This document shows, in pieces, positions 49,315 through 58,519 of a stretch of 64,000 bases of DNA. Made by a program: the position numbers and the translations under genes. Below the pieces are notes generated by a model. It worked only from the letters and a program-made list of their open reading frames with translations, ran no database searches and was not told where the DNA came from. Numbering within the stretch: position 1 is the first letter of the stretch; every line of letters starts with the position of its first letter. This DNA comes from Clostridiales bacterium GWF2_38_85 (GTDB taxonomy: Bacteria > Bacillota > Clostridia > Oscillospirales > CAG-382): NCBI GenBank assembly GCA_001797275.1, contig MGOY01000014.1:248001-312000 (forward strand), given 5' to 3'.

Positions 49315-50535
49315 ATGAAAACAGAAACCTTTGAAAGCTATAAACAATTTTACCATGATCAGCTTATTAATGACTGTATACCATTCTGGATGAACAGTGA
49401 TCTGATCGATAAAGAAAATGGCGGTTACATCACCTCGGTTGACAGAACAGGTAAAAGCTATAATAATGATAAATCGGTCTGGTTCCAGGGCAGATGCCTT
49501 TGGACCTTTTCGGCGCTTTGCAACAGATATGGTGAAAAAAAGGAATGGATGGATGGCGCGAAAGCAGGTGTTGATTTTCTTGACACAAAATGCACCGATT
49601 CCGACGGAAGAATGTTCTTCCAGGTAACAAGGGACGGTCGCCCGCTCAGAAAACGTCGTTATATGTATTCAGAGAGCTTTTATGTTATATCGATGGCGGA
49701 ATATGCTCTTGCCAGCGGTAACAGAAAATATCTGAAAAAGGCAGAGGATTGTTTTGAGCTTATGTTGAAGCTGTATAGAACACCCGAAGCTGACCCATTT
49801 AAGATAACTCCAAAATCATATGCATCAACTCGCAACGAACGAGCTTCTGCAGTTCCGATGGTTCTTGTAAGCTGTGCGCAGCTGCTAAGACGCTGTGATT
49901 TGCAGAAAGCTGAGTATTACAATTCAGTCGCTAAGGAAATGGCTGATATTATAATCAAATATCATTATAAACCCGAGTTGAAATGCGTTCTTGAAACAGT
50001 TGATGAAGATGGTAGCAGAATAGATATACCCGCAGGCAGAACCGTCAATCCCGGTCACTCAATGGAAAATTCTTGGTTCATAATGAATCAGGCAATTTAT
50101 AATAAAGATAATACTTTGTTAAAACAAGCTCTTAATATCCTTGACTGGTCGCTTGAGCTTGGTTGGGACAAGCAATATGGTGGATTTATCTACTTTACAG
50201 ATATAGACGGCAGACCCTGCGAACAGCTTGAGCATGATATGAAGCTCTGGTGGGTACATAACGAAGCACTTATCGCAACACTTATGGCATATGGGCTTAC
50301 CGGTAATAAAAAGTATTGGGATTGGTTCGAAAAGGTACACCTTTATTCATTCGGCCATTTTGCAGATAAAGAAAACGGCGAATGGTACGGATATTTACAT
50401 AATGACGGAACAGTTTCTCATACTCAGAAGGGTTCGATGTGGAAAGGTCCATTCCATTATCCGCGCTGCCTGATGAACTGTGAAGCGCTTCTTGATATGC
50501 TTGTAAAAGAAAAACCTATTGAAGGGATTTTATAA
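49315..50535 (+). CDS. N-acylglucosamine 2-epimerase (AGE) family protein
   Basis: An (alpha/alpha)6-barrel isomerase of 406 residues that interconverts GlcNAc and ManNAc or related sugars. Family features are WFQGRCLWTFSAL, the RTVNPGHSMENSWF histidine segment and KLWWVHNEALIATL. AAAGGG precedes the ATG. It lies next to nagB, fitting amino-sugar salvage. Some relatives epimerise cellobiose or mannose, so the exact substrate is open. Its 3' end contains the ribosome binding site of the next gene. Confidence 0.9.
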   Translation: MKTETFESYKQFYHDQLINDCIPFWMNSDLIDKENGGYITSVDRTGKSYNNDKSVWFQGRCLWTFSALCNRYGEKKEWMDGAKAGVDFLDTKCTDSDGRMFFQVTRDGRPLRKRRYMYSESFYVISMAEYALASGNRKYLKKAEDCFELMLKLYRTPEADPFKITPKSYASTRNERASAVPMVLVSCAQLLRRCDLQKAEYYNSVAKEMADIIIKYHYKPELKCVLETVDEDGSRIDIPAGRTVNPGHSMENSWFIMNQAIYNKDNTLLKQALNILDWSLELGWDKQYGGFIYFTDIDGRPCEQLEHDMKLWWVHNEALIATLMAYGLTGNKKYWDWFEKVHLYSFGHFADKENGEWYGYLHNDGTVSHTQKGSMWKGPFHYPRCLMNCEALLDMLVKEKPIEGIL

Positions 50536-50576
50536 ACTGAATAGTAATAGCCACTTTGGGTTTATAAAAAGTCACA
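50522..50576 (+). promoter_or_regulatory. ribosome binding site, 10-bp hairpin and MATE start
   Basis: AAGGGA (50522-50527) inside the end of the epimerase gene is followed at once by TTTTATAAAC (50528-50537). This pairs perfectly with GTTTATAAAA (50560-50569). AGTCACA then leads to the ATG at 50577. Linear spacing is 49 nt, but with the stem closed it is 7 nt. There is no other ribosome binding site near the ATG. Confidence 0.55.
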
Positions 50577-51998
50577 ATGGAATATTTACTAAAGCTCGGT
50601 AACCTGTTTAAAAAATTATATGTACCCGAGCTTATGATTAAAGAAAAGGATAAATTAGGCGAAATTCCGGATACACGTAGTGTGTATTCGGAGCTTTTCC
50701 GTATCGCATGGCCGGCAGTTATCGAATCGCTGCTGGTCGGGCTTGTAGGCTTCATTGATACTATAATGGTATCTGATGTTAGATACGGTATTGCTGCAAC
50801 AGGCTTGACCGGTCAGCCTCGAATGGTTTTTTACGCAGTATTTTTTGCGATAAATATTGCTGTAACTGCGATTGTAAGTCGCAGAAAAGGGCAGGGTGAC
50901 CGCGAAGGAGCAAGAAAAACACTTTCGCAATCAGTCAGTTTAATCCTTATTCTTGGCGTAATTATGGTTGGTACAGCACTATTAGTCGCAGAACCACTTA
51001 TGATTTTTGCCGGAGCTAACGAAGATACTATAATTGATTCGACCAACTATTTCAGAATAACAATGGTTGGATTGCTGTTTACCTCAATCGGCATGACAAT
51101 AAACGCAGCTCAAAGAGGCGTCGGTAATACCAAGATAGCAATGAGAACAAACATGGTTGCAAATCTGGTTAATGTTGTATTCAATTATATGCTGATCAGC
51201 GGTAACTTCGGATTTCCGGCTTGGGGAGTAACCGGAGCAGCTGTTGCAACTCTACTTGCTAATATAACGAGCTGTACACTGTCTGTTTTATCGTTAGTCA
51301 AACCGGATTCCTTTTTACATATTAAATTTAATGAATTATTCAAGTTTTCAAGCTTAGTTATGAAAACCATAACAAGAATCAGTGTGTCCGCAGGCGTTGA
51401 GCAGATCTTCATGAGAGTTGGTTTTTTTGCATATACAAAGATGGTTGCTGAGCTTGGTACAAACAGCTTCGAAGCACATCAGATTTGTATGACCATAATT
51501 TCGATGTCCTTTGTTTTCGGTGATGGGCTTGGCATTGCAGCTTCCTCGCTTGTTGGACAGAATCTTGGCAAAAAGCGAAAAGATTTAGCTACAATTTTCG
51601 GGAAAGCATCACAACGTGTAGGGATAGTTTTTTCTGTCGGTTTGATTACATTGTTTGTGTTCGGCGGAGAAATGTTGATGCGATTGTTTACTGACGATCC
51701 TGAAATAATCAGCATCGGTATTATAATACTATATATAATCGCAGCATCTTCGCCGGCTCAAATTTCGCAGGTTATTTACTCAGGCTGTCTCAGAGGTGCC
51801 GGAGATACAAAATATGTTGCCGCAACCTCATTGATAAGCATCGCAATTATACGACCGATAATAACATATATATTGTGTTATCCTCTCGGCATCGGAGTAA
51901 TAGGCGCATGGATAAGCTTGATTGTGGATCAATATACTCGTTTGTTATTGAGCGCAACAAGATTTTCAGGTGACAAATGGTGTCGCATAAAGGTTTAA
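50577..51998 (+). CDS. MATE-family multidrug/toxin efflux transporter
   Basis: A 473-residue inner-membrane cation-coupled exporter with 12 membrane segments. The family repeats are IAWPAVIESLLVGLVGFIDTIMV and ISVSAGVEQIFMRVGFFAYTKMV, and the pattern of two six-helix halves is clear. The first ~40 residues are an extra basic/amphipathic leader. The start lacks a normal ribosome binding site, but a hairpin upstream can bring AAGGGA into place. Its substrate is unknown; location after amino-sugar genes may be incidental. Confidence 0.9.
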   Translation: MEYLLKLGNLFKKLYVPELMIKEKDKLGEIPDTRSVYSELFRIAWPAVIESLLVGLVGFIDTIMVSDVRYGIAATGLTGQPRMVFYAVFFAINIAVTAIVSRRKGQGDREGARKTLSQSVSLILILGVIMVGTALLVAEPLMIFAGANEDTIIDSTNYFRITMVGLLFTSIGMTINAAQRGVGNTKIAMRTNMVANLVNVVFNYMLISGNFGFPAWGVTGAAVATLLANITSCTLSVLSLVKPDSFLHIKFNELFKFSSLVMKTITRISVSAGVEQIFMRVGFFAYTKMVAELGTNSFEAHQICMTIISMSFVFGDGLGIAASSLVGQNLGKKRKDLATIFGKASQRVGIVFSVGLITLFVFGGEMLMRLFTDDPEIISIGIIILYIIAASSPAQISQVIYSGCLRGAGDTKYVAATSLISIAIIRPIITYILCYPLGIGVIGAWISLIVDQYTRLLLSATRFSGDKWCRIKV

Positions 51999-56830: not shown

Positions 56831-56857
56831 TTAGCACTTGATACGCAAGAGTGCTAA
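56831..56857 (+). promoter_or_regulatory. CIRCE operator (HrcA binding site)
   Basis: TTAGCACTT-N9-GAGTGCTAA, one base from the CIRCE consensus (TTAGCACTC-N9-GAGTGCTAA). It overlaps the start of the hrcA transcript, so HrcA should repress its own operon until heat stress. Confidence 0.95.
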
Positions 56858-56874: not shown

Positions 56875-57909
56875 TTGGAGCTTAGCGACCGCAAAAAACA
56901 AATATTAAAGTCAATAATTGATGCTTATATTTCTTTCGGCGAACCGATAGGCTCAAAATATCTTACTGAAAACTGCGATATCAATCTATCACCGGCAACG
57001 ATCAGAAACGAAATGAGTGAGCTTGAAAACATGGGTTTTCTTGAACAGCCACATACTTCCGCTGGAAGAGTTCCGACGACTCAGGGGTACCGGACATATA
57101 TAGAACTTCTTATGGAACGGTATAAATTGACTGTCGAAGAAGTTTCGCTGCTTAATGAGCTTCTGAATTTTAAACTCGGTGAGATGTCAAATATCATGGA
57201 TGAAGCGAGTAGAGTTATTTCAGAGATGACTAATTATACAACCTTCTCCGTAATAAAGAAAAAAGGTATAACAGTAAACCGCTTTGATTGTGTCAGAGTT
57301 GATGACAGAAGTTATATATTAATATTAATATGCGATGACGGTAATATCCGCAGCAGACATTTATATTCGGATGAGGTTGTTGATGAGGACTTGCAGATAG
57401 TTGCCGCATCGTTGAATGAAATACTTGTAGGCACTTCAATAGAACAGCTTACTCTACCGAAAATTCTTAAATTTGAAGAAAAACTCGGTACAAAAATTGC
57501 TTTTGGACGGGAAATATTAAAATCGGTTTATGATATGCTTGGTTTATCCGAAAAGGAACAGGTACATCTGAGCGGTATAACAAAGCTCCTGTCATATCCC
57601 GAGTTTTACAATGTATCAAAAGCACGCTGTGTACTAGAGGTTTTCGAAAGAAAGTGCGATTTGATAAATGTTCTTTTCGACTCAAAACCGGATAAAATGA
57701 ATGTTTTTATTGGTAACGAAGTAATGAATTGCATGATACCTGATTCCAGCTTTGTATTTAAACCAATTACTTTTAGCGGAAATACAATCGGAGGTATTGG
57801 TGTAATAGGGCCGAAACGAATGAATTATAATAAAGTAATAGCGAGTCTTGAATATTTTGTTAAAGGATTTATCGATGAGATAGATGACGAACAAAATAAC
57901 AATAAATAA
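56875..57909 (+). CDS. hrcA: heat-inducible transcription repressor HrcA
   Basis: Repressor of class I heat-shock genes, 344 residues. It has an N-terminal winged helix (LSDRKKQILKSIIDAYI, SPATIRNEMSELENMGFLEQPHTSAGRVPT in two parts), a GAF-like middle and the C-terminal GVIGPKRMNY segment. I chose the TTG at 56875 because AAGGGAG lies 8 nt upstream; the GTG at 56851 lies within CIRCE. First gene of hrcA-grpE-dnaK. Confidence 0.95.
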   Translation: MELSDRKKQILKSIIDAYISFGEPIGSKYLTENCDINLSPATIRNEMSELENMGFLEQPHTSAGRVPTTQGYRTYIELLMERYKLTVEEVSLLNELLNFKLGEMSNIMDEASRVISEMTNYTTFSVIKKKGITVNRFDCVRVDDRSYILILICDDGNIRSRHLYSDEVVDEDLQIVAASLNEILVGTSIEQLTLPKILKFEEKLGTKIAFGREILKSVYDMLGLSEKEQVHLSGITKLLSYPEFYNVSKARCVLEVFERKCDLINVLFDSKPDKMNVFIGNEVMNCMIPDSSFVFKPITFSGNTIGGIGVIGPKRMNYNKVIASLEYFVKGFIDEIDDEQNNNK

Positions 57910-57911
57910 GC

Positions 57912-57955
57912 AAGGAGGACGCAAAGCATATTATTAAAAAAGCTTTGCTGCAGCG
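57912..57955 (+). promoter_or_regulatory. AAGGAGG ribosome binding site and hairpin before grpE
   Basis: A consensus AAGGAGG (57912-57918) is 37 nt from the grpE ATG. Between them GCAAAGC (57921-57927) can pair with GCTTTGC (57942-57948) over a 14-nt loop. With the stem closed, AC plus TGCAGCG leaves 9 nt to the ATG, the ideal distance. No ribosome binding site lies closer. Confidence 0.6.
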
Positions 57956-58519
57956 ATGGGAAAGAAAGACAAAAACATCAATGAAAACGAGGAGATAAAA
58001 AAGGGTGAAAAGGTAGAATCAACTGATGCAACTGAAAATACTGCCGAAAACTCTGATGATATAGAAACTCCCGATAGTAACAAAGAAATTGATGAGCTGA
58101 AAAAACAGCTTGATGAGCTTAATGATAAATATTTAAGACTTATTGCTGAATACGATAATTACAGAAAACGATCGCAGAAAGAAAAAAGCGGCATTTACAC
58201 AGATGCATACGCAGAAGCATTATTGCTTATACTTCCTATCGTAGATAATGTTGAAAGAGCAGCAGAATTCGCAACAGACGACAGTGAGCTGTCAAAGGGT
58301 ATAAATATGCTTCAGAATCAATGTTTAGATTTTATTACAAAAACAGGCATTAAGGAGATTAAAGCACTCGGTGAGCAATTCAACCCTGAGCTTCATAATG
58401 CAATAGCACATTCCGAAGATGATGAAACACCGGCAAATACAATTACACAGGTGTTTGTCAAAGGGTATAAAAAAGATGACAAAGTTATAAGATATGCTTT
58501 AGTAAAGGTAACAAATTAG
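57956..58519 (+). CDS. grpE: nucleotide exchange factor GrpE
   Basis: DnaK co-chaperone, 187 residues. A charged, disordered N-terminus (~50 residues) precedes the long coiled coil (IDELKKQLDELNDKYLRLIAEYDNYRKRSQKEK in two parts) and the C-terminal beta domain (EQFNPELHNAI, TQVFVKGYKKDDKVIRYALVKV). The ATG at 57956 has its ribosome binding site behind a hairpin. It lies between hrcA and dnaK. Confidence 0.95.
   Translation: MGKKDKNINENEEIKKGEKVESTDATENTAENSDDIETPDSNKEIDELKKQLDELNDKYLRLIAEYDNYRKRSQKEKSGIYTDAYAEALLLILPIVDNVERAAEFATDDSELSKGINMLQNQCLDFITKTGIKEIKALGEQFNPELHNAIAHSEDDETPANTITQVFVKGYKKDDKVIRYALVKVTN

Follow-up and report, generated by a model that had tools for sequence, protein, structure and literature searches.

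Hairpin-bridged Shine-Dalgarno (SD) sequences are, to our knowledge, known from a few phage genes, and no report of such sites as a chromosomal class was recognised in the literature searched, in which coverage of subscription papers was partial; a review of the T4 cases and a standby-site paper that treats thrS were the two sources recognised there as relevant to bridged sites. Structure at the starts of heat-shock genes is familiar from RNA thermometers (ROSE, fourU), and the accommodated hairpin of Escherichia coli thrS sits upstream of the region between the SD and the AUG. In the accessible part of the thrS report, the ribosome is described as accommodating this folded hairpin within the binding region (PMC3936740). 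The closest described systems are T4 genes 25 and 38, in which the SD is too distant and an intervening structure restores the spacing, as proven experimentally; the spacing is shortened from 22 to 5 nt in gene 38 and from 27 to 11 nt in gene 25, and the gene 25 arrangement is given, in the portion of that source available, as confined to close relatives with a conserved stem (PMC3014915).

In a 64,000-nt stretch of the genome of Clostridiales bacterium GWF2_38_85 (the window), the heat-shock gene grpE is preceded by a strong distant SD with no near SD, by a predicted fold that leaves 9 nt and by a layout found again in a close relative. As far as the available T4 text permits the comparison, grpE and the class of sites around it resemble genes 25 and 38 in the over-long gap between SD and AUG, the bridging structure and the restriction to close relatives. 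They differ in that the T4 cases are phage genes with proof by experiment, whereas here many chromosomal genes of one genus are concerned and the bridging is predicted; moreover, the stem sequence is not conserved and the spacers are longer (about 28-55 nt). Unlike that of thrS, the grpE hairpin lies between SD and AUG, although on the thrS text available both would be hairpins accommodated by the ribosome. The locus is like an RNA thermometer in having structure at a heat-shock gene start, with a weak helix predicted over the grpE AUG, and unlike one in that the SD is predicted to be free (unpaired 0.85 when a 119-nt segment is folded at 37 °C) and the bridging stem to be stable well above heat-shock temperature. 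We consider it probable, at roughly 0.67, that grpE has a hairpin-bridged (accommodated, or split) ribosome-binding site and that this is one of a class in the genus.

The grpE start region

The gap between hrcA and grpE reads TAA-GC-AAGGAGG-AC-GCAAAGC-14 nt-GCTTTGC-TGCAGCG-ATG (Table 1). The initial annotation had described an AAGGAGG and a stem ahead of grpE, with 37 nt to the ATG reduced to 9 nt by folding, and a second reading of the coordinates in the sequence bore this out: the spacer is 37 nt and 2 + 7 = 9 nt remain with the stem closed. SD energies were calculated with a 16S 3' tail that we assume for this organism; the 16S rRNA was not found in either draft assembly of the genus, and the anti-SD was not readable from them. 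On this scale the best SD-like 8-mer near the grpE ATG has -0.7 kcal/mol versus -10.7 for the distant one.

The proposed N-terminus also stands. The grpE frame is closed upstream by an in-frame TAA (57935-57937), the ATG at 57956 is the single start codon between this stop and the matched part of GrpE, and the alignments of the two best NCBIfam GrpE models begin at residues 6 and 3 of the protein started there. An upstream start close to the SD was ruled out since none is in frame and the stop intervenes.

Table 1 Features of the grpE start region and of further members of the class (G000, source genome; G001, congener)
Feature	Position	Strand	Basis or description
hrcA, upstream operon gene, start TTG 56875 by eye, ends TAA 57907-57909	56875..57909	+	Pfam HrcA, E 1.4e-44
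Distant SD of grpE, AAGGAGG	57912..57918	+	-10.7 kcal/mol with the assumed 16S 3' tail
5' arm of grpE bridging hairpin, GCAAAGC	57921..57927	+	sequence and RNA folding
Hairpin loop upstream of grpE, 14 nt	57928..57941	+	sequence and RNA folding
3' arm of grpE bridging hairpin, GCTTTGC	57942..57948	+	sequence and RNA folding
Linker from hairpin to grpE start codon, 7 nt, TGCAGCG	57949..57955	+	sequence
grpE, 187 aa, sole possible start ATG 57956-57958	57956..58519	+	Pfam and NCBIfam
Distant SD of MATE gene, GAAGGGA	50521..50527	+	sequence scan
MATE bridging hairpin, arms 50529-50538 / 50559-50568, 10-bp outer stem	50529..50568	+	fold, p 0.024
MATE transporter gene, bridged start ATG 50577	50577..51998	+	Pfam
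cheR, G000			GAAAGGA, 12-bp stem
Gene at C3 28568, G000			13-bp stem
DUF4855 gene, G000			11-bp stem
SpoIVB peptidase gene, G000			AAGGAGG-AA, 9-bp stem, 6 nt, ATG
CGGC protein gene, G000			8-bp stem
Ser/Thr-kinase-like gene (by eye), G001	L168:9550-11409		GAAAGGAG and 10-bp stem before ATG

Folding of 101 nt returned the grpE hairpin with a z score of -2.29, and 1 of 200 shuffled sequences was equally stable. When the 47 nt from SD to ATG were folded, z was -1.15 and 26/200 shuffles did as well, and the spacer alone gave p 0.15 for energy, or 0.085 with the residual-length condition added. Because these shorter folds are unremarkable (26/200; p 0.085-0.15), a hairpin beyond chance is only suggestive for the grpE site on its own.

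Recurrence before grpE and tsf in the congener

The genus was represented by two genomes, the source genome GWF2_38_85 (G000) and one congener (G001). The grpE gene of G001 is preceded by AAGGAGG-CAA-GGGG-A-UUU-8 nt-AAA-G-CCCC-GATTACAGA-ATG, a spacer of 36 nt that gave p 0.018, while for the whole stretch from SD to ATG 60/200 shuffles were equally stable. The grpE spacers of the two species look too different to align. The same layout is thus retained before grpE and, as described below, before tsf in the sole congener, with other sequences.

The initial annotation took relatives with an ordinary grpE binding site and no stem to speak against the arrangement. Outside the genus such sites are indeed the rule: of 128 grpE loci (80 retained loci and those of 48 out of 53 further family genomes that gave a match), 127 offer at least one candidate start whose near SD reaches -6 kcal/mol or lower; the scan accepted any in-frame start 5' of the conserved part, and hence a few of the counted starts may be false. 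Within the genus, by contrast, the congener has the same layout with a different stem. The single exception among the 128 (L097, grpE of family genome G006) carries an in-frame TAA between the N-terminus and the conserved domain, and AAAGGATGATGATCATG was noted there by eye. In this sample the grpE layout appears restricted to the genus, and its sequence appears to have turned over within it.

The gene for EF-Ts, tsf, is the strongest case because its start is fixed by TIGR00116 in both species, residue 1 of EF-Ts falling at position 2 of the model in each. In G000 the SD GAAAGGA precedes a stem of 12 bp when the spacer is folded, or of 10 bp when more sequence is included, and 10 nt then lead to the ATG; p is 0.003, and the near-start SD energy is -2.3. 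The G001 gene has GAAAGGA-CT-GUCUGUUCACC-18 nt-GGUGAAUCGAC-CGAAAAATAT-ATG (-13.9 kcal/mol), in which 10 of 11 bp of the stem form with a sequence unlike that of G000, again with p 0.003; an SD-like GGTGAATC (-7.4) lies inside the 3' arm of this stem, at the distal limit of the scan. The tsf sample comprised 45 loci. Beside the two of the genus, it took in the best-scoring loci of the family (28 of the 44 further genomes that gave a match) and of the order (15), and in all 43 of these the near SD reached -6 or lower.

Counts and members of the class

Gene calls came from a basic hexamer model and covered roughly one third of either genome; both are draft assemblies, and they represent different species. 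A distant strong SD was scored as bridged if one hairpin with an energy no higher than -4.5 kcal/mol left 4-16 nt, and 200 dinucleotide shuffles served as the control. The G000 sample (1,053,184 bp) yielded 908 genes, of which 745 had a near SD, 143 had neither kind and 20 had only a distant strong SD. Fifteen of these 20 were bridged versus 3.98 +- 1.59 expected (maximum 9 in the 200 shuffles), which places about 15 of the 908 sampled genes in the class where about four would be expected by chance, and the excess over shuffles held in 7/7 threshold sets. The G001 sample (861,392 bp) gave 646 genes and nine distant SDs; five of the nine were bridged versus 1.61 +- 1.02 in shuffles (maximum 4), and none at a hairpin energy of -8 or below. 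These stricter counts supersede an earlier survey in which loose SD cuts had returned 47 and 28 starts, many of them internal and weak.

Outside the genus, a small set in which the same gene neighbourhoods are repeated (the grpE and tsf loci plus stretches of three family genomes) contained 649 genes with eight distant SDs, one of them bridged versus 2.37 expected. When G000 was compared with this set, Fisher p was 0.002-0.02 in six threshold sets and rose to 0.25 when the SD cut was set at -10; with G000 and G001 taken together, p was 0.013-0.035 in four sets, 0.052 in one, and 0.2 and 0.3 in the other two. The restriction to perfect helices of at least 7 bp, applied to a smaller sample, gave 7/18 bridged in G000 versus 0.81 expected (maximum 3 in 100 shuffles), one in G001 versus 0.32, one in the family genome G040 (0.44 expected) and none in G036 and G054.

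A second control used non-coding 40-nt windows upstream of near SDs. Such windows are generally hairpin-rich (19-20% at p <= 0.05), and the comparison was 13/20 far sites versus 23/185 windows in G000 (Fisher 6e-7) and 5/9 versus 36/127 in G001 (Fisher 0.13). When every ATG, GTG or TTG with a weak near SD was scanned for a perfect helix, 19 of 1633 candidate starts scored in G000 versus 91 of 64066 other codons; the same type of scan of G001 found 2/1066 versus 59/41494, hardly any excess. The class is weaker in the congener than in G000.

Individual members were gathered in a list of 16 sites, hand-picked from several scans (the unbiased counts are those of the threshold surveys), in which the stem begins 0-2 nt past the SD 8-mer and 7-14 nt are left once it is closed. 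Stems reach 12-13 bp in G000 and, by eye, their sequences differ from one member to another. For 16 members, orthologs were sought within the sequence already sampled: 14 had no match, the match to the DUF4855 gene had no usable start and that to C18 2719 had, by eye, a normal SD. Of the bridged G000 genes, four had a start that was readable in G001, where grpE and tsf are bridged and the SpoIVB gene and C18 2719 (by eye) have a normal SD. No match to cheR was found in G001, and the matches there to the MATE gene are distant ones (24-25%). The initial annotation had regarded the convergence of grpE and this MATE gene on optimal effective spacing as an argument against chance. The parallel itself holds and extends to a class and to the sister species. 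Taken singly, the MATE hairpin has p 0.024 and the grpE spacer 0.085-0.15. The grpE case becomes convincing through the layout in the congener, the class of sites and tsf.

Proposed mechanism and rival readings

Bridging is the natural reading of the mechanism, as shown for the hairpin-shortened spacing of T4 genes 25 and 38. In this scheme the 30S subunit would bind the AAGGAGG of grpE, the hairpin between SD and AUG would remain folded on the 30S platform, looped out, and the AUG would be reached after about 9 unpaired nt rather than 37. The hairpin would shorten the spacer and make the distant SD functional, with a path of about 7-14 nt across sites. The computation shows the parts of the site, the missing near SD, the enrichment over shuffles and the recurrence with other sequence before grpE and tsf of the congener; formation of the stem on the mRNA, use of the distant SD by the ribosome and a gain in translation from the stem are our inferences. 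When eight sites were folded with more flanking sequence, the bridging hairpin was kept in the best structure, often with partial pairing of SD and AUG elsewhere: the unpaired fraction was 0.06 for the grpE AUG, 0.06 for the MATE AUG and 0.39 for the cheR SD, while the G001 tsf site was open (SD 0.80, AUG 0.90). The medians for 158 ordinary near-SD genes were 0.44 (SD) and 0.41 (AUG), so that the grpE and MATE AUGs, at 0.06, are predicted to be less open than that of an ordinary gene.

It might be argued that a 37-nt gap in an AT-rich genome will often fold and that the SD belongs elsewhere or is a relic. The p values of the grpE spacer alone and the abundance of hairpins in upstream non-coding windows speak for such an accident, but the layout recurs before grpE of G001 and before tsf in each species, and the excess in G000 stands against both shuffles (15/20 versus 3.98) and control windows (13/20 versus 23/185); we regard chance as quite unlikely. 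The SD might instead serve a short leader ORF, the main gene being started by translational coupling. Four of the 16 hand-listed sites do have an ATG or TTG shortly past the SD, all out of frame; at the G000 gene C3 28568-29821 (L233) an ATG right after the SD opens a short out-of-frame ORF that passes through the hairpin and overlaps the main start as ATGA, so that coupling could replace bridging there, and at cheR 7 nt separate the end of a TTG frame from the start. However, 12/16 sites, including grpE of both species, G001 tsf and the MATE gene, have no ATG, GTG or TTG there, which makes this explanation highly improbable for the class.

A regulated switch, responding to temperature, a protein or a small RNA or acting as a nuclease site, with spacing secondary, is likewise unlikely, although grpE does sit behind hrcA and a CIRCE-like palindrome, and the B. 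subtilis dnaK operon is described, in the part of the source available, as having post-transcriptional control and segmental mRNA stability (PMC5727486). The initial annotation had raised the idea of a structure here that changes translation with temperature, and for the bridging stem itself this was abandoned on grounds of geometry and predicted stability. The predicted pairing of the G000 stem falls only from 0.99 at 37 °C to 0.98 at 50 °C and is >0.9 up to 65 °C, and melting would separate SD and AUG, lengthening the spacer and lowering GrpE, which would make the stem a poor thermosensor; the stem of G001 holds less firmly (0.86 at 37 °C, 0.74 at 50 °C). Heat control might act by another route, a weak helix predicted at 57952-57990 in the 119-nt segment, separate from the bridging stem, in which GAUG pairs with CAUC of the coding region. 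It is predicted to open slowly with heat (the AUG goes from 0.06 unpaired at 37 °C through 0.15 at 45 °C to 0.26 at 50 °C; in the 47-nt fold the AUG is unpaired) and could add some heat response to grpE. In G001, however, the AUG is far less covered before grpE, at 0.48 unpaired at 37 °C, and almost uncovered before tsf (0.90). Nor do the members share a stem sequence by eye, the segment 56650-58700 gave no Rfam covariance-model match at E <= 1, and the remaining six Pfam-named members are unrelated in function.

The palindrome TTAGCACTTGATACGCAAGAGTGCTAA, seen by eye at 56831-56857 before hrcA, is CIRCE-like. Transcriptional heat control would be expected to act there.

Returning to bridging as the preferred reading, we give an even chance to the broader proposal that hairpin-bridged SDs are a standing second initiation mode used by possibly 30-40 genes in each genome, among them core ones such as tsf (an estimate scaled up from 15/908 less the chance share), in which the geometry is selected, the stem sequences turn over freely and the sites are missed by analyses that look about 20 nt upstream. 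In the available part of a Staphylococcus aureus study, for example, spacing was measured within 20 nt before the start, a window in which bridged sites would go unseen (PMC13009471). If the proposal is true, a chromosomal class in which a core translation factor is bridged by unrelated stems in both species would offer natural replicates. One could then ask what lets the 30S subunit accept folded RNA between SD and AUG, by what route normal sites become bridged within a family, and what number of seemingly SD-less genes carry a distant SD.

A possible bridged site was also seen outside the genus, in the family genome G040 (L181:10220-11803), where an 8-bp hairpin comes after GAAGGAGG and a start lies some way beyond it.
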